This document shows positions 9,159-41,047 of a stretch of DNA of 49,839 nucleotides, one piece after another. Every line of letters starts with the position of its first letter. Position 1 is the first letter of the stretch. The translations under genes were made by a program, and so were the position numbers. The DNA is from Solirubrobacterales bacterium (GTDB lineage Bacteria > Actinomycetota > Thermoleophilia > Solirubrobacterales > Solirubrobacteraceae), in assembly GCA_019247075.1 (NCBI GenBank), contig JAFAPR010000100.1, forward strand, positions 1 to 49,839, in the 5' to 3' direction. The notes beneath the pieces are model-generated. The model ran no database searches. It was not told where the DNA came from and was given only the letters and a program-made list of their open reading frames with translations.

Positions 9159-11105
9159 TCAGTCCCGCGCGAAATCTCGCTCTTGGGCCAGCGCGACAAA
9201 GTAATCGAGCGCCTCGGGGTTAGCCAGTGATTCGCGGCTGGCCGCCTGCTCGGGCGCGGTGCCCATGAGAATGCGCTTGACCGGAACCTCGAGCACCTTG
9301 CCCGAGAGCGTGCGCGGCACCTCGGCGATCTGCCGCACATCGTCCGGCACGTGGCGCGGTGAGGCTTCCTCGCGGATCCTGCGCTTGATCGCCGCCACCA
9401 GCCCGTGGTCGAGCTTGGCCCCGTCGCGCAGCACCACGAAGAGCGGCATCCATCCCCCCGTTCCCTCTCGCGGGAGATCCAGGACGAGAGCGTCGAGCAC
9501 ATCCGGGACGTCGAGAACCGCGCGGTAGATCTCGCTCGTACCCATCCTGACGCCGCCGCGGTTGATCGTCGAGTCCGAGCGCCCGTAGATGATCGCGGTC
9601 CCGCGCGGCGTGATCTCGATCCAGTCGCCGTGGCGCCAGATCCCGGGATACATCGAGAAGTAGCTTTCGCGGTAACGCGAGCCGTCCTCATCGCCCCAGA
9701 AGTAGATCGGCATCGAGGGCATCGGCTGGCTAATGACCAGCTCTCCGACCTCGCCCACCACCGACCTGCCCTCCGGATCCCAAGCCTCGACTGCGCAGCC
9801 GAGCGCCCGGCCCTGGAGCTCGCCTTCCCTCACCGGCAGCGTCGGGACTCCGCCTACAAACGCCGTGCACACGTCGGTCCCGCCGGAGGTCGAGAACAAC
9901 CAGACGTCGGGCCCCAGCTGGTCATAGATCCAGCGGAAGCCCTCGCGCGCGAGCGGCGAACCGGTCGAGCCGACCGCCCGCAGATTCGGCAGTTCGCCGC
10001 CGGATGCGGGCTCGAGCCCCGCCTTCATGCAGGAGCTGATGAAGGCCGCGCTGGTGCCGAAGCAGGTCATGCCGGTGCGCTGCGCAAGGGTCCACAGCGT
10101 GCCGAGGTCGGGGTGGCCGGGATTGCCGTCGTAGAGCACGATCGAGGCCTCGGTCAACAGCACCCCGACGAGAAAGTTCCACATCATCCAGCCCGTGGTG
10201 GAGAACCAGAACAAGCGATCACCCGGCTGGGCATCTAGATGGAGATGGCTCTTCTTCAACTGCTCGAGCAAGATTCCGCCCTGCCCGTGGACGATCGGCT
10301 TCGGTAGCCCAGTGGTGCCCGAGCTATAGAGCACCCAGAGCGGGTGGGCGAAGTCAAGGGGCGAGAACTCGAGGTCTCCCGATCCCAGAAAGCCCGGCTC
10401 CCAGCCCGATCCGTCAAGGTAGCCGAGCGTGACGAGGCGCTGCACCGACCGAACCGAATCGGCGATCTCCCGCACCACCTGGCGGCGGTCAAAGTCGCGC
10501 CCCCCGTAGCGGTAGCCATCGATCGCCAGCAGTACCTTCGGCTCGATCTGACCAAAGCGGTCGATCACGCTACGCGCGCCGAACTCGGGCGCGGCAGAGG
10601 ACCAGATCGCGCCCAGCGAAGCGCATGCGAGAAAGGCCGCGACCGTCTCCGGGATATTGGGAAGGTAGGCGGCCACGCGGTCACCCTCGCCCACCCCCAG
10701 GTTGCGGAGTCCCGCGGCGATTGCAGCGGTGTGCTCGCGCAGCTGGCCCCAGCTCCATTCGCCGGGCTCGCGCAGCTCGGATGCGTGCCGGAGCGCTATC
10801 TCATCCGGGGACTTGTCCCGGAAGATGTGCTCGGCATAGCTGCACCGCGCGCCCGGGAGCCACTGCGCTCCGGGCATCTCGCGCCTGCCAAGCACCTTCT
10901 CCGGCTCTCGCGAGAAACGCACGTCGAAGAACTCGATGATCGACAGCCAGAACTCCTCGAGGTCCCGCACCGACCACCGCCACAGCTCTTCGTAGGAGCC
11001 CAGTTTGAGCCCGCGGGTTTGCTCCAACCAGCGCCGGTAACGCGTGATCGTGGCGCGCTCGGCACGGGCCGGCGAGGGCTTCCAAAGCGGTTCCGGCGAA
11101 CCCAT
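9159..11105 (-). CDS. aacS: acetoacetyl-CoA synthetase
   Basis: 648 aa, the usual length for AacS. It activates acetoacetate to acetoacetyl-CoA with ATP (ANL adenylate-forming superfamily). The N-terminus has the ACS-type lead MGSPEPLWKPSP...LEEFWLSIIEFF. The AMP-binding P-loop is LYSSGTTGLPKPIVHG; GRSDSTINRGGVRMG gives the adenylate-binding core; LSGKVLEVPVKRIL near the C-terminus supplies the catalytic Lys. The frame is open far upstream, but the ATG at 11105 matches the family start, and further extension would overlap the divergent redox gene. No thiolase or CoA-transferase partner is nearby. It probably feeds ketone-body or polyhydroxybutyrate-derived acetoacetate into the acyl-CoA pool used by the fatty-acid genes further along. 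Confidence 0.95.
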   Translation of the reverse strand: MGSPEPLWKPSPARAERATITRYRRWLEQTRGLKLGSYEELWRWSVRDLEEFWLSIIEFFDVRFSREPEKVLGRREMPGAQWLPGARCSYAEHIFRDKSPDEIALRHASELREPGEWSWGQLREHTAAIAAGLRNLGVGEGDRVAAYLPNIPETVAAFLACASLGAIWSSAAPEFGARSVIDRFGQIEPKVLLAIDGYRYGGRDFDRRQVVREIADSVRSVQRLVTLGYLDGSGWEPGFLGSGDLEFSPLDFAHPLWVLYSSGTTGLPKPIVHGQGGILLEQLKKSHLHLDAQPGDRLFWFSTTGWMMWNFLVGVLLTEASIVLYDGNPGHPDLGTLWTLAQRTGMTCFGTSAAFISSCMKAGLEPASGGELPNLRAVGSTGSPLAREGFRWIYDQLGPDVWLFSTSGGTDVCTAFVGGVPTLPVREGELQGRALGCAVEAWDPEGRSVVGEVGELVISQPMPSMPIYFWGDEDGSRYRESYFSMYPGIWRHGDWIEITPRGTAIIYGRSDSTINRGGVRMGTSEIYRAVLDVPDVLDALVLDLPREGTGGWMPLFVVLRDGAKLDHGLVAAIKRRIREEASPRHVPDDVRQIAEVPRTLSGKVLEVPVKRILMGTAPEQAASRESLANPEALDYFVALAQERDFARD

Positions 11106-11130
11106 TTCGAGCGGGAGTATCGCGTAGCTG

Positions 11131-11136
11131 TACGCT
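11131..11136 (+). promoter_or_regulatory. candidate -10 element of the selenoprotein gene
   Basis: TACGCT, the hexamer that recurs ahead of several genes here. Transcription would begin near 11143, which excludes a TTG start at 11136 and leaves the GTG at 11187 with a leader of about 44 nt. No convincing -35. Confidence 0.3.
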
Positions 11137-11186
11137 TGCCGACGTGGCCGCCGGCGCCTCAGGACCGCATCATCTCGGACGCGCCC

Positions 11187-11732
11187 GTGCGGGCTGACGC
11201 GCTTGCAGACATCGTGCTGCCCGACCAGGACGGCAACGAGGTCCGCCTGGGAGATCTCTGGCACGACCGCCCGGTAGCGCTGGTCTGGCTCCGCCACTGG
11301 GGCTGAATTTTCTGTAAGGAACACGCGGTCCAGTTGGACCACGCCCGGGACGAGTTCGAGGCGGCCGGCGCCGGGCTTGTGCTGATCGGGCAGGCCACGC
11401 CCCGCCACGCGGCGCACTTTCGCCGCCGCCAGGGAATCGAGCTCGAGGTGCTCGCCGACGAGTGGCGCGAGAGCTACCGGGCGGCAGGCGCCAAGATCGC
11501 AACGGTCTCGGAGCTGGTGGGGCCGAAGATGATCGCCAAGGGCGCCCTCGCCACCGTGCGCACGCGGAAGCTCCAGACACGTCCCATCGGCAATTCGGCG
11601 CAGCTGGGCGGCGCCATGGTGATCCTGCCCGACGGTCGGGTCGGCTGGTCGCACATGTCCGCGGACGCGAGCGACAACGCTGCGCCGCGCGAGATCCTGG
11701 CCGCCGTTCGCGCTTGCGGGCTGAGCGGCTGA
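11187..11732 (+). CDS. candidate selenoprotein: AhpC/TSA-like (SelU/PRXL2-type) redox protein with UxxC
   Basis: 181 aa if the in-frame TGA at 11304-11306 is read as selenocysteine (U40). Before the TGA: ADIVLPDQDGNEVRLGDLW and ALVWLRHWG. After it: IFCKEHAVQLDHARDEF and, near the end, AQLGGAMVILPDGRVGW. These two halves are the N- and C-terminal parts of one AhpC-TSA_2 thioredoxin-fold domain, whose members carry RHFGCxFCRE. The TGA replaces the first Cys of that CxxC, giving U-I-F-C. A stem-loop of bacterial SECIS type follows at 11327-11340. The family is that of vertebrate SelU/PRXL2; the likely role is thiol/peroxide redox chemistry. Start: GTG 11187 (a TTG at 11136 is the alternative). 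A nonsense mutation (TGC to TGA) or sequencing error is the competing explanation. The Sec machinery (selA, selB, selC, selD) is not in the window. Confidence 0.78.
11324..11343 (+). promoter_or_regulatory. bSECIS-like stem-loop downstream of the in-frame UGA
   Basis: Perfect 5-bp stem GGTCC (11327-11331) / GGACC (11336-11340) closing a tetraloop AGTT (11332-11335). CG (11324-11325) and CG (11342-11343) extend it across one C-A mismatch. The loop starts 26 nt after the UGA and has G as its second base. This fits the known bacterial SECIS rule: apical loop roughly 16-37 nt from UGA with a G among its first two bases. Such a hairpin would recruit SelB. Confidence 0.65.
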
Positions 11733-11815
11733 CGGCGCCTCGCTCAGCGGTGAGCGGCTGACCGCGCCTCGCTCAGCGGTGAGCGGCTGGCCGCGCCGAG
11801 CGCGCGCTCAGCGGT
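11723..11815 (+). repeat. three-copy tandem repeat with stem-loop, between convergent genes
   Basis: Unit 1 (11723-11751) and unit 2 (11752-11780) are 29 bp each and differ at one base; unit 3 (11781-11815) is a 35-bp variant with a 6-bp insertion. Each unit starts GAGCGGCTG and ends GCTCAGCGGT, so GCTGAGCG-type and CGCTCAGC-type arms can form an 8-bp stem. The TGA stop of the redox gene lies inside unit 1. The array ends 4 bp before the zur stop, so it may be a bidirectional terminator that expanded. Confidence 0.8.
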
Positions 11816-11818
11816 GAG

Positions 11819-12262
11819 CTAAGCGCACCGCTCGCAGGCGCCGCGCAGCAGGATGTCGTGTCCCGAGATGCGCATCCCGAGGCGATCCGAGAGCTTGCCG
11901 ATTGCCCGCTCGAGGCCCGGATCGTCAAATGCGATCAGGCGGCCACACCCCTCGCAGACAAGATGGTGATGGTGCTCGCCGCTTGGATGCTGGCGCTCGA
12001 ACCGAGCCTGGCCATCCCCGACCTCCACTCGCTCCGCCAGGTCGTGCTCGACGAGCAGGTCGAGTACCCGGTAGATACTCGCGCGCCCCGGCGAGCGGCC
12101 CGTGGCGCGTAGAGCGTCCTCGATCTCCGTGGCGCTCAGCGCGCACGGCTGCGCAGCCAACAGATCGATCACCCGCTCCCTGGCGCCGCCGCGCTTGAGG
12201 CCGGCGCCTGCGAGTACCTCGTGCACGTGCTCGCTCCATGCCTGGGCTTGTTGCGACGCCAT
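11819..12262 (-). CDS. zur: Fur-family zinc uptake regulator (Zur)
   Basis: 147 aa from ATG 12262. The N-terminal winged helix (about 10-85) contains RERVIDLLAAQ and SRASIYRVLDLL-like recognition elements (here GRASIYRVLDLLVEHDL). The dimerisation/metal domain follows with EHHHHLVCEGCGRLI, giving the His cluster and first CxxC, and a C-terminal CERC, the second CxxC of the structural Zn site. Fur, Zur and PerR are hard to tell apart by sequence; the divergent znuABC operon argues strongly for Zur. The start is supported by TACGCT (12276-12271) 8 nt upstream. An in-frame TTG at 12271 would lie inside that promoter and is rejected. It probably autoregulates through the shared intergenic region. 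Confidence 0.9.
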   Translation of the reverse strand: MASQQAQAWSEHVHEVLAGAGLKRGGARERVIDLLAAQPCALSATEIEDALRATGRSPGRASIYRVLDLLVEHDLAERVEVGDGQARFERQHPSGEHHHHLVCEGCGRLIAFDDPGLERAIGKLSDRLGMRISGHDILLRGACERCA

Positions 12263-32787: not shown

Positions 32788-34432
32788 CTTGTGACGCCGG
32801 TTTGCGGATCAGCGGTGGCGCCGTGGGCGTCGGGTGTGACGCGGCACGCGGGTTCCGGCTCGGACCACCGTGCGCGCGGGAGTTGTTTGATCGAGCGCTC
32901 GACGCTCGCCGCAGGCCGTACGGGCTTGCCGGGGCGGGGTGCGATCGCGCCGCGGGGCCGGGCGGTGCGGGACGGGAAGATGCCCCGGGAAGTCCGTTCC
33001 CCTGGCCCCAGCCCAGGTGGCGCCCCTCGTTGCCGCTCGATCCCGGATGGCGCCCGGCCCCGGGGCCCCGTCCCAGGTGGCGCCCCTCGCTACGGCTCGA
33101 TCCCGGATGGCGGCCGGCCCCATGGCCCCATTGATGTTGGCGGCCTTGGGAAGCGGCGTGCCGTCCGCGAGCCTCGCCGTGCGTGCCGGGCGGTGAGCCG
33201 CAGCCGGTGCACTCCGTCGCGCCAGGCCGCCCGCCCGCGCGGTCAGCCGCCAGCGATGGCTGCGGTAGGCCGTTTGCCGCCGCCCCCCCGCGGCCGTGGC
33301 TTCCGACGCCGTGTGCGCCGGGGCGCGAGGAGTGCAGTGGCACGCCGACGGAGAAGCCGCCCGCGGCGACGCCCATCGCAACCGCGAGTCCGAGCAGGAA
33401 CTTGGGGGCAAAGGCGGTGGTGAGCCCCTTGGCAAGCATCCCCGCGCCAGACCCGCCCGATGCCGCGAAGCCCGACACGCCGCCCGCCGCGGAAGGCCCG
33501 GAGCCGGTCCAGCCCGGGCCGGAGGCGGACGAGCCGGCGCCGTTGGCGCCTGCGCCGTTGGAGGCCGTGGGGCCGGTGCCGGCGCTCGTCCCGCCGTGGA
33601 GGCGCGCGCCATCGATGACGCGCTCGAGCACGGCCGCGGCGCACGCTGGCGCCATCACCGGCGTCAGCGCGCGCAGCTGCGCCCCCCGCTGCGGGATCGC
33701 GGCGGCAAAAGCAGCGCACGCGCGGCAGTCGCGCAGATGGGCCCGCAACCGGCGGCCCCTGAAGGCACGCCCGTCTCCGTCAGACAAGCGGCGCGTCACG
33801 TCGTCGCAACTCATCGCCCGCCCCTCACCGAACTCCAGAAGCCCCTTGCGCGCCTCGAAGATCGCTTGCTTCGCCGCCCCGGTCGACAGCCCGAGGGTGG
33901 CGGCGATCTCCTCGTGCGAGAGGCCGCCGAGCTCGCGCATCACGAGCGCCGCCCGAGCGCGGTCGGGGAGCATCGACAGATCCTCGAGTAGCGCCGACAG
34001 GCGGGCACGATCGCCGGCGCGCTCCTCCACGGAGGGCGCATCCAAGGGGGGCGGCTCGCGCCCGAGCCGACCTTCCGCTGCACGGTTCTCGCGCAAGAGA
34101 GATATCGCTTCGTTGTGGGCAATCCGGTACAGCCACGGGCGCAGCGGCGCGGCGCGCCGCCCCTGGCGTAACGCGACGAGCGCCTTGGTGAATGTGGATT
34201 GGACCGCATCCTGCGCATCGGCTTCGTTGCGCAAGATCGAGTAGCAGTACCGGTGCAGAACCGCGCTGTAGCGGTCGTAGATCGCCGTGAAGGGCCGCTC
34301 GCCACCGGAGGCGGCAAGCCGGGCGAGCAATTCGTCCGACTGACGCGGGCGACCGCCTGAGTGCAGCGGCGCCAGCCGCGTCGGCGCGTCCGCGGTTCCG
34401 CATGTCGTATCGACGACGCGCTCGGCGGCCAT
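32735..34432 (-). CDS. ECF sigma factor fused to zinc-finger, TM segment and low-complexity tail
   Basis: 565 aa. Sigma-70 region 2 (about 48-115: FTAIYDRYSAVLHRYCYSILRN, PWLYRIAHNEAISLL) and region 4 (about 145-200: DRARAALVMRELGGLSHEEIA). Then a zf-HC2-type anti-sigma-like module with C209, H232, C236 and C239 (HLRDCRAC), a Gly/Ser/Ala linker, one TM helix (about 343-365) and a 200-residue Gly/Pro/Arg/His/Ser-rich tail that would be outside. The sensor, anti-sigma and sigma parts are thus in one polypeptide; release would need proteolysis or a conformational switch (inference). The tail contains 20-residue repeats. It is divergent from the GH-GT gene. The last 53 bp overlap the PIG-L gene. 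Confidence 0.85.
   Translation of the reverse strand: MAAERVVDTTCGTADAPTRLAPLHSGGRPRQSDELLARLAASGGERPFTAIYDRYSAVLHRYCYSILRNEADAQDAVQSTFTKALVALRQGRRAAPLRPWLYRIAHNEAISLLRENRAAEGRLGREPPPLDAPSVEERAGDRARLSALLEDLSMLPDRARAALVMRELGGLSHEEIAATLGLSTGAAKQAIFEARKGLLEFGEGRAMSCDDVTRRLSDGDGRAFRGRRLRAHLRDCRACAAFAAAIPQRGAQLRALTPVMAPACAAAVLERVIDGARLHGGTSAGTGPTASNGAGANGAGSSASGPGWTGSGPSAAGGVSGFAASGGSGAGMLAKGLTTAFAPKFLLGLAVAMGVAAGGFSVGVPLHSSRPGAHGVGSHGRGGAAANGLPQPSLAADRAGGRPGATECTGCGSPPGTHGEARGRHAASQGRQHQWGHGAGRHPGSSRSEGRHLGRGPGAGRHPGSSGNEGRHLGWGQGNGLPGASSRPAPPGPAARSHPAPASPYGLRRASSARSNNSRAHGGPSRNPRAASHPTPTAPPLIRKPASQVSRGRQLAPGASRARVR
33001..33120 (-). repeat. two 60-bp tandem units in the sigma-fusion tail
   Basis: 33001-33060 and 33061-33120 are in register and mostly identical: shared CCCAGGTGGCGCCCCTCG and GGCTCGATCCCGGATGGCG-like blocks (the first copy has CCGCTCG). 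On the minus strand each encodes 20 residues with GAGRHPGSS and EGRHLG. A decayed third copy follows (33121-33150). The repeat preserves the reading frame. Confidence 0.85.
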
Positions 34433-39748: not shown

Positions 39749-41047
39749 CTATGCGGGCGCGCGGCGCGGCCTGATGCGGACGGCCTCGATTCGGTTCTCG
39801 CGGACGGACTCGACCCGAATCGAGTAGCCATTGGCGGTCACGGTGTCGCCCCGCTTGGGCAGGCGTCCGAGCTCGGCGAAGACAAGACCCCCCACCGAGT
39901 TGTAGGCGTCCGTGCCCAGCGGCAACTTCAGTCCGTAGTCCTCGAGGTCGGTCACCGCCACGTGGCCGCGGACGAACCAGTCGCCGTTGGCGAGCCGCCT
40001 GACAGCGCCGCCCGCCGGGTCTGTCTCATCCGAGATCTCGCCAACGACCTCCTCGATGATGTCCTCGATCGTCACGATTCCGGCCGTGCGGCCGTACTCG
40101 TCGATCACTACCGCCAGTTCGGTCCGTTCGCGCTGCAGGTCGGCAAGCAGGTCGTCGAGCGGCTTCGTCTCGGGGATGATCGGGGCGTCTCGTATGAGAC
40201 TTGAGATGTTTGCCCCTTCTCCCTCGGACATCAGCAGCTTGACCAGCTGGTTTACGTGGACGATCCCCTTCACGCGGTCTTGGTTTGAGTCCTCGGTCGC
40301 GACAAGCCGCGAGTGCCCGCTCGACACGCACAGTCGCAACGCGGTCAGGACTGTGTCGGACTCGTCGACGGTGACCACGGCGGGGATGGGGGTCATCACC
40401 TGTCGCGCCTGCTGCTCGTGCAGATGGAATACGCCGGTGAGCATGTTCGCCTCGCCGGGGTCGATGTGGCCGCCGGTCTGTGAGTGGGCTATCAGCCGCT
40501 TGATCTCCTCTGGGGTGCTCGCGTCCGCCTCGGCCTCCGGGTCGAGGCCCATCATCCGCAGAATTGAGTAGGAGGATGAATTCAGTAGGAAAATGAAGGG
40601 CAAGAAGAGCGTGCGGAAGAACTGGAGCGGACGGGCAATGCGGCGAGCCAGCGATTCCGCGTGCTGGATCGTGTACAGCTTGGGCATGATCTCGCCGACG
40701 ACGCTCTGCGCGGTCGTGATCAGCAGGTAGGCGATCACGACTGAGATCACCACGGCCGCGCCGTGACCGACCGCTCCACCTAGCGCTGGCTCCAGCAAGT
40801 GGGCAACTGCCGGCTCGCCAAGCGCGCCGATGCCGATCGAGGCCATGGTGATCCCCACTTGGCAGGCCGCGATGTAGTCGCCGATGTTCTCCTGTTGGTG
40901 GACAGCCAAGCGGGCGCCGCGGGCTCCCTCCTCCACCAGTGCCTCGAGCCGCGCCCGGCGCGACCGGACGAGCGCGTACTCCGCGATCACGAAGAACGCG
41001 TTCACGAGGACCAAGAGGCCCGTCAGGACAATGAACAGCGCCTTCAC
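39749..41047 (-). CDS. CorC/HlyC-family (DUF21-CBS) membrane transporter-like protein
   Basis: 432 aa from GTG 41047. DUF21/CNNM-type TM domain (1-180; NAFFVIAEYALVRSRRARLEAL; GEIMPKLYTI), paired CBS domains (about 205-320; QVMTPIPAVVTVDESDTV, VVIDEYGRTAGIVTIEDIIEE) and a C-terminal CorC_HlyC transporter-associated domain (GHVAVTDLEDYGLKLPLG). Family members are linked to Mg2+/Co2+ export. The 165 bp upstream shows a TATAGA hexamer but no properly spaced -35. Confidence 0.92.
   Translation of the reverse strand: MKALFIVLTGLLVLVNAFFVIAEYALVRSRRARLEALVEEGARGARLAVHQQENIGDYIAACQVGITMASIGIGALGEPAVAHLLEPALGGAVGHGAAVVISVVIAYLLITTAQSVVGEIMPKLYTIQHAESLARRIARPLQFFRTLFLPFIFLLNSSSYSILRMMGLDPEAEADASTPEEIKRLIAHSQTGGHIDPGEANMLTGVFHLHEQQARQVMTPIPAVVTVDESDTVLTALRLCVSSGHSRLVATEDSNQDRVKGIVHVNQLVKLLMSEGEGANISSLIRDAPIIPETKPLDDLLADLQRERTELAVVIDEYGRTAGIVTIEDIIEEVVGEISDETDPAGGAVRRLANGDWFVRGHVAVTDLEDYGLKLPLGTDAYNSVGGLVFAELGRLPKRGDTVTANGYSIRVESVRENRIEAVRIRPRRAPA

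Follow-up and report, generated by a model that had tools for sequence, protein, structure and literature searches.

A reading frame in the genome of a Solirubrobacterales bacterium raises the question of whether a UGA within a gene marks damage or error, belongs to an altered code, or is translated as selenocysteine (Sec). The frame lies in the window considered here, the whole stretch of 49,839 nucleotides from contig JAFAPR010000100.1. It runs from GTG 11187 to TGA 11730-11732 and contains exactly one other stop, TGA 11304-11306, as the original prediction had claimed. Judged from sequence comparison, Sec is very probably inserted at UGA 11304-11306 in a protein of the SelL-related family. 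The gene is thus very probably a genuine member of an established selenoprotein family, NCBIfam NF040769, to which all that it adds is a new copy in a new taxon. The features, all on the + strand, are these:

11187..11732, + strand: putative gene of the SelL-related family, coding for a peroxiredoxin-like selenoprotein; a start at GTG 11187 gives 181 residues, Sec included
11304..11306, + strand: TGA, putative Sec codon, residue 40 and position 1 of UxxC, from the Cys/TGA column in relatives and the Sec machinery of the genome
11313..11315, + strand: TGT, Cys43 of UxxC, likely the resolving Cys; Cys in 80 of 80 related loci
11324..11343, + strand: predicted bacterial SECIS hairpin with AGTT (11332-11335) as its apical loop and a stem of 7 pairs and a single C-A mismatch
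11730..11732, + strand: TGA as the normal stop, from the reading of the frame and the ends of same-genus relatives

An interrupted frame and its family

With the internal TGA read as Sec, the surrounding motif is LRHWG-U-IFC-KE. The start codon is ambiguous, the start list and sequence offering TTG 11136 as an alternative to GTG 11187. GC content at codon positions 1, 2 and 3 is 0.87/0.41/0.85 before the TGA and 0.72/0.52/0.89 after it, a coding-type pattern on either side. Gene calling that is blind to Sec is expected to give only a headless piece of 132 amino acids, by which the selenoprotein is lost in annotation, and the mechanical list of open reading frames does hold the predicted fragment, at 11334-11732 after the TGA. 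The same list includes a 320-residue frame (10344-11306) that terminates at the internal TGA; because it matched no Pfam family and is for the most part antisense to the acetoacetate-CoA ligase gene, high GC probably accounts for its length. Counting against a Sec reading is a terminator-like hairpin with a T-rich tail at 11286-11305, which ends at the TGA in question (one found, against a shuffle mean of 0.3). No promoter-like site was found in 11050-11900. A 29-bp tandem repeat (11722-11797, 2.6 copies, 95% matches) starts inside the last codons of the gene.

The read-through protein scores 133.6 bits against NF040769, "SelL-related redox protein" (cut-off 120, residues 8-173), and exceeds the cut-offs of three Pfam families: PF00578 (residues 4-105), PF08534 (4-107) and PF13911, AhpC-TSA_2, which matches from residue 51 to 157 at 42.9 bits (cut-off 27). 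All 51 aligned members (the window copy and 50 of the 80 loci described below) match NF040769 at E <= 0.001; most of the loci fetched carry CxxC, whereas the window copy carries UxxC. PRXL2 is here taken to be the name for the SelU-type family that includes human prostamide/prostaglandin F synthase (PGF synthase). Both marks of SelU/PRXL2, a PF13911 domain and a peroxiredoxin (Prx)-like fold, are found in the read-through protein, and a Cys pair sits at the place of its UxxC in the human enzyme (9us9, 9usa); identity to SelU/PRXL2 structures is 18-20% in structural alignments. An earlier assignment to the SelU/PRXL2 type is thus sound for the wider AhpC-TSA_2 group but not at the level of the closest named family, which is SelL-related rather than SelU. 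The motif of SelL proper is presumably UxxU. SelL of fish, invertebrates and marine bacteria is, by description, likewise Prx-like with Sec in its redox motif, but it has two Sec residues (so the accessible text of PMC3473315) and a diselenide, whereas UIFC in the window protein provides one Sec and one Cys and so falls outside SelL proper.

Related selenoproteins have been catalogued before. The accessible text of PMC13188914 treats 119 prokaryotic selenoprotein families or subfamilies, and its Table 1 places a Prx-like thiol:disulfide oxidoreductase with UxxC/UxxU under PF00578, a broad label with which the window protein, compared by description, has both PF00578 and UxxC in common; the terms SelL, NF040769 and Actinobacteria are absent from that text. 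In the available portion of PMC2398784, SelL, a Prx-like protein, stands among the families of both prokaryotes and eukaryotes, and Prx-like UxxC groups are reported from marine samples. Sec users among Actinobacteria, such as Microlunatus and Nakamurella, appear in the available portion of PMC5029168, although SelL was not found in that portion or in the corresponding one of PMC9312934. The expectation that a bacterial selenoprotein of this kind would be unusual is weakened accordingly, since an NCBI family model exists, Prx-like UxxC proteins are catalogued and Sec use by Actinobacteria has been published. A search of the literature found no paper joining Solirubrobacter with selenoprotein and selenocysteine; the accessible text of PMC9727886 has thermoleophil, selenoprotein and selenocysteine once each, and the phrase SelL-related had no occurrence among the matches listed. 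Solirubrobacterales-type metagenome-assembled genomes (MAGs) are hereby added to a family whose namesake, in the accessible text of PMC2397514 (2008), was restricted to aquatic organisms, marine bacteria included.

Selenocysteine machinery and the active-site column

The source genome, a draft assembled into 367 contigs, spans 3.88 Mb and is 87% complete; 5S rRNA was not found in it. It had been supposed that the organism decodes UGA as Sec, and the presence in this draft of selA, selB, selD and tRNA-Sec, all four above their cut-offs, supports this. The selA gene (442.9 bits, cut-off 267.9) adjoins selB (298.5 bits, cut-off 242.25) on contig C99, selD lies on C61 (366.1 bits, cut-off 125), and tRNA-Sec on C203 (64.4 bits, cut-off 47) is identified by ARAGORN as tRNA-SeC with anticodon TCA. 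The tRNA-Sec model also gives weaker matches in all 26 genomes of the close set described below and in 14 of 14 controls, above the cut-off in 5 of these 14, so only the strong C203 match counts. The selD gene (L047) has an in-frame TGA of its own, FSHGAG-U-ACK. Two formate dehydrogenase alpha-like genes, on C41 (L132) and C209 (L133), score 636.2 and 173.2 bits against TIGR01591, below its cut-off of 666.25, and each has one TGA just before His; one of these, NRT-U-HAP, fits the UHxP motif given in the accessible text of PMC13188914, which the other, ARI-U-HSS, does not fully fit. Because in-frame TGA codons occur at likely Sec sites in these three genes and in the SelL-related one, the genome likely has up to four selenoprotein genes. 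Genome-wide translation of UGA as a different amino acid, Trp for example, in the manner of genetic code 4, would leave the frame equally open, but its probability is negligible: the gene itself ends at TGA, the same-genus relatives L018, L022 and L023 stop within a few codons of 11730-11732 (two of the three with TAG), the active-site column is otherwise Cys, and the tRNA with anticodon TCA is accompanied by SelA, SelB and SelD.

Homologues were collected in two sets. The close set comprises 26 genomes (the source genome and 25 relatives) searched with the NF040769 profile; nine loci exceed 113 bits, TGA is present in five, which come from four genomes with the source among them, and selB is above its cut-off in 12 of the 26. 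A wide scan, in which each species was represented by a single genome, confirmed 477 stretches, and the best 80 loci of these were retained. At the column of the window TGA these 80 loci have Cys in 67 and TGA in 13, with no other residue, so that TGA does replace the first active-site Cys as predicted; 13 of 80 should not be read as a true frequency, since the search patterns wrote U as C and TGA homologues could be caught by the second pattern only. The second Cys of CxxC/UxxC is kept in all 80. The two sets overlap (G006 = L053, G008 = L056, G009 = L052 + L055, G013 = L097, G025 = L062), and because L052 and L055 come from one MAG the 13 TGA loci represent 12 MAGs. Among named relatives the nearest are MAGs of Solirubrobacterales (Actinomycetota), and TGA loci also occur in MAGs named Sericytochromatia, Myxococcota and Planctomycetota. 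The viral contigs searched held no relative (39 pattern matches, 0 confirmed). One MAG (isolate AC_37, VAXR01) contains two family members, L059 and L060, of which one has TGA and the other Cys.

These counts bear on the suggestion that the true genome reads TGC and that the TGA is an error of sequencing or assembly. A draft in 367 contigs leaves some room for such an error, but the same TGA recurs in 4 of the 26 genomes searched, the source included, and in 12 named MAGs from several projects, three of these MAGs belonging to the four genomes just mentioned. The suggestion is barely credible.

Among the 38 genomes from the 80 loci, selA exceeds its cut-off in 8 of the 12 that have TGA and in 9 of the 26 that have Cys, a difference that is not significant (p 0.087). 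Counting against Sec decoding, three of the 12 TGA MAGs have no selA (L053, L064 and L069), and in the L058 MAG selA is in pieces under the cut-off. In the L053 and L064 MAGs selB and tRNA-Sec are also not above cut-off, for which MAG incompleteness may be the cause. The L069 MAG has tRNA-Sec at 71.5 bits, and the L058 MAG has tRNA-Sec at 68.5 bits and selB above cut-off. In the genome of L058 the selA region (G031:C60:108603-109675) lies next to selB and is split into four pieces spread over different reading frames, owing to frameshifts or sequencing errors.

A candidate SECIS hairpin and the exchange of Sec and Cys

The AGTT loop of the predicted hairpin lies 25 nt after the TGA and is closed by GGTCC/GGACC. 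The bacterial SECIS (bSECIS) model in the accessible text of PMC13188914 has a loop of 3-9 nt with G in the first two positions and a stem of 4-16 bp, 16-37 nt from the UGA, with MFE <= -7.5. When sequences were folded by a script at nine lengths, the window fitted this model with 5-7 bp and -9.5 to -17.6 kcal/mol among the six solutions listed. The model is loose, being fitted by 12 of 13 TGA loci and by 22 of 67 Cys loci. If the loop G must precede a G or U, the counts are 12 of 13 and 6 of 67. The one TGA locus outside the model, L053, has AGTT and four of the five stem pairs but takes another fold by MFE. AGTT itself stands at the loop place in 11 of the 13 TGA loci but in just 2 of the 67 with Cys (Fisher p 5.5e-10, computed on related rows with kinship ignored), and it is also found within a hairpin after the TGA of selD in the same genome. 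In the window and all seven TGA relatives compared, the loop is encoded by CAG TTG (Gln-Leu); TTG makes up 40 of 505 Leu codons (8%) in nine open reading frames of the window.

Pairing and covariation were counted in 11 rows chosen for AGTT, the window and 10 of the 13 TGA loci; L055, from the same MAG as L052, was left out, as were L070 and L074, which do not have the AGTT hairpin but have others that fit the bSECIS model (AGGTCA, 16 nt from the TGA, and GGT, 17 nt from it). The helix is paired in 93.2% of 88 cells in these 11 rows, against at most 53.4% in slid controls. Their covariation score of 0.400 was reached by 0 of 500 shuffles, and five pairs have changed on both sides, a count reached by 22 of 500; further pair types are no more numerous than chance would give, 242 of 500 shuffles reaching their number. 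At the same place, 18 of the 67 Cys loci reach 66.0% pairing over 144 cells, whereas slid controls do not exceed 50.0%; their score of 0.386 was again reached by 0 of 500 shuffles. Covariation thus did not separate TGA from Cys loci and is not special to the former, codon constraint or relic hairpins contributing; on the sequences compared, the two groups differ in the loop sequence, in the fit to the bSECIS model and in the completeness of pairing. Taken by itself, the window hairpin shows no unusual stability (z -1.58 at 42 nt and -0.15 at 50 nt), and no Rfam family besides tRNA reached its gathering score in the window.

Decay of the gene is a further alternative, in which the TGA would be a nonsense mutation in a Cys-type gene. 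Most loci do have Cys, and a single base separates TGC from TGA. No decay is seen on either side of the TGA: between the window and seven TGA relatives (dS 0.70-1.37), dN/dS is 0.05-0.30 upstream of the TGA (32-38 codons) and 0.32-0.61 downstream (123-135 codons), both halves being conserved. Against decay are also the recurrence of TGA at this one column in 13 of the 80 loci, in MAGs of several phyla, the lack of a second internal stop in the frame, and the hairpin of the SECIS model in 12 of the 13 TGA loci. A pseudogene is therefore very improbable and, like sequencing error and a genome-wide change of code, is rejected on this evidence.

On a tree of 44 rows (the window and 43 of the 80 loci) the Sec/Cys label requires at least 7 changes (6-7 over bootstrap trees), the starred branches alone forcing 4, and the AU test rejects one common Sec clade (p 7e-6); by this phylogeny Sec and Cys interchange. 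One Cys member, L057 (Bacterium HR41), falls inside the starred group of seven rows that contains the window, the other six being Sec, though its exact place within the group is uncertain. Its MAG has no selA and no selB above cut-off, and its best tRNA-Sec match of 50.6 bits exceeds the gathering score of 47 but lies within the range where control genomes also match. Because a Cys copy stands within an otherwise Sec group and selA and selB are missing above cut-off, L057 looks like a reversion to Cys with loss of the machinery. Such switches, together with a loop found mainly in Sec copies, provide a compact natural test of SECIS gain and loss.

Predicted fold, chemistry and surroundings

AlphaFold2, run on the 51-row alignment (the window and 50 of the 80 loci), predicts a peroxiredoxin-like fold with a mean pLDDT of 92.8 and pTM of 0.90, in which a helix (41-52) follows directly after residue 40. 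The best solved relative by sequence is human PGF synthase (9us9, E 1.1e-21), whose GCVVC is aligned with the GCxxC of the family. The same human enzyme ranks first by fold (9usa, by its title a C44S/C47S mutant), followed by BCP/PrxQ peroxiredoxins and ResA; ResA structures are also among the next by sequence, and BCP/PrxQ peroxiredoxins are among the solved relatives.

From these comparisons a course of events may be proposed. SelB with Sec-tRNA(Sec) would recognise the hairpin and insert Sec at UGA 11304-11306, and the UGA at 11730 would terminate the chain. Sec at the start of the helix would attack a peroxide or disulfide, Cys43 would resolve the oxidised Sec as a selenenylsulfide, and a thioredoxin-type donor would re-reduce it. 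A Sec nucleophile with a resolving Cys is the likeliest chemistry by analogy with the family. The product would be a small peroxiredoxin-like selenol/thiol oxidoreductase of the SelL-related family, its peroxide chemistry being on balance probable.

It is tentatively conceivable that Sec is inserted as described and that the enzyme is instead a ResA-like disulfide oxidoreductase or a PGF-synthase-like reductase of lipid endoperoxides and not a general peroxide reductase. The first place of the human synthase both by sequence and by fold, with ResA structures among the next matches, speaks for such an activity; BCP/PrxQ peroxiredoxins rank nearly as high by fold, and the fold does not fix the substrate. 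A narrower proposal, that the Actinomycetota have a Sec-containing, PGF-synthase-like reductase of lipid endoperoxides or hydroperoxides that is under selection and has repeatedly switched between Sec and Cys, is doubtful.

A Sec-type SelL-related domain in a Myxococcota MAG (L069:6001-7518) is continuous in frame, with no further stop, with a short-chain dehydrogenase region, whose best NCBIfam match is PRK06196 (E 5.8e-39, below cut-off). Since this Sec homologue runs in frame into a short-chain dehydrogenase, a lipid or carbonyl substrate chain is hinted at.

Directly after the selenoprotein gene, the window has a Fur-type gene. Fur-type and ZnuA-type homologues are also present near L053, L055 and L056, the Fur end lying some 1.8-1.9 kb downstream of the gene with the TGA; the locus is thus partly conserved, with distances that differ. 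The regulator is FUR by Pfam and below every NCBIfam cut-off listed, that of Zur included; it had been named zur, which is plausible from the znu-type neighbours. Elsewhere in the window are a 60-bp tandem repeat at 33004-33130 (2.1 copies, 86% matches) and, against a GC content of 69% for the window, an AT-rich 17-bp repeat (GAATTCAGTAGGAAAAT) at 40561-40597 in 2.2 copies.
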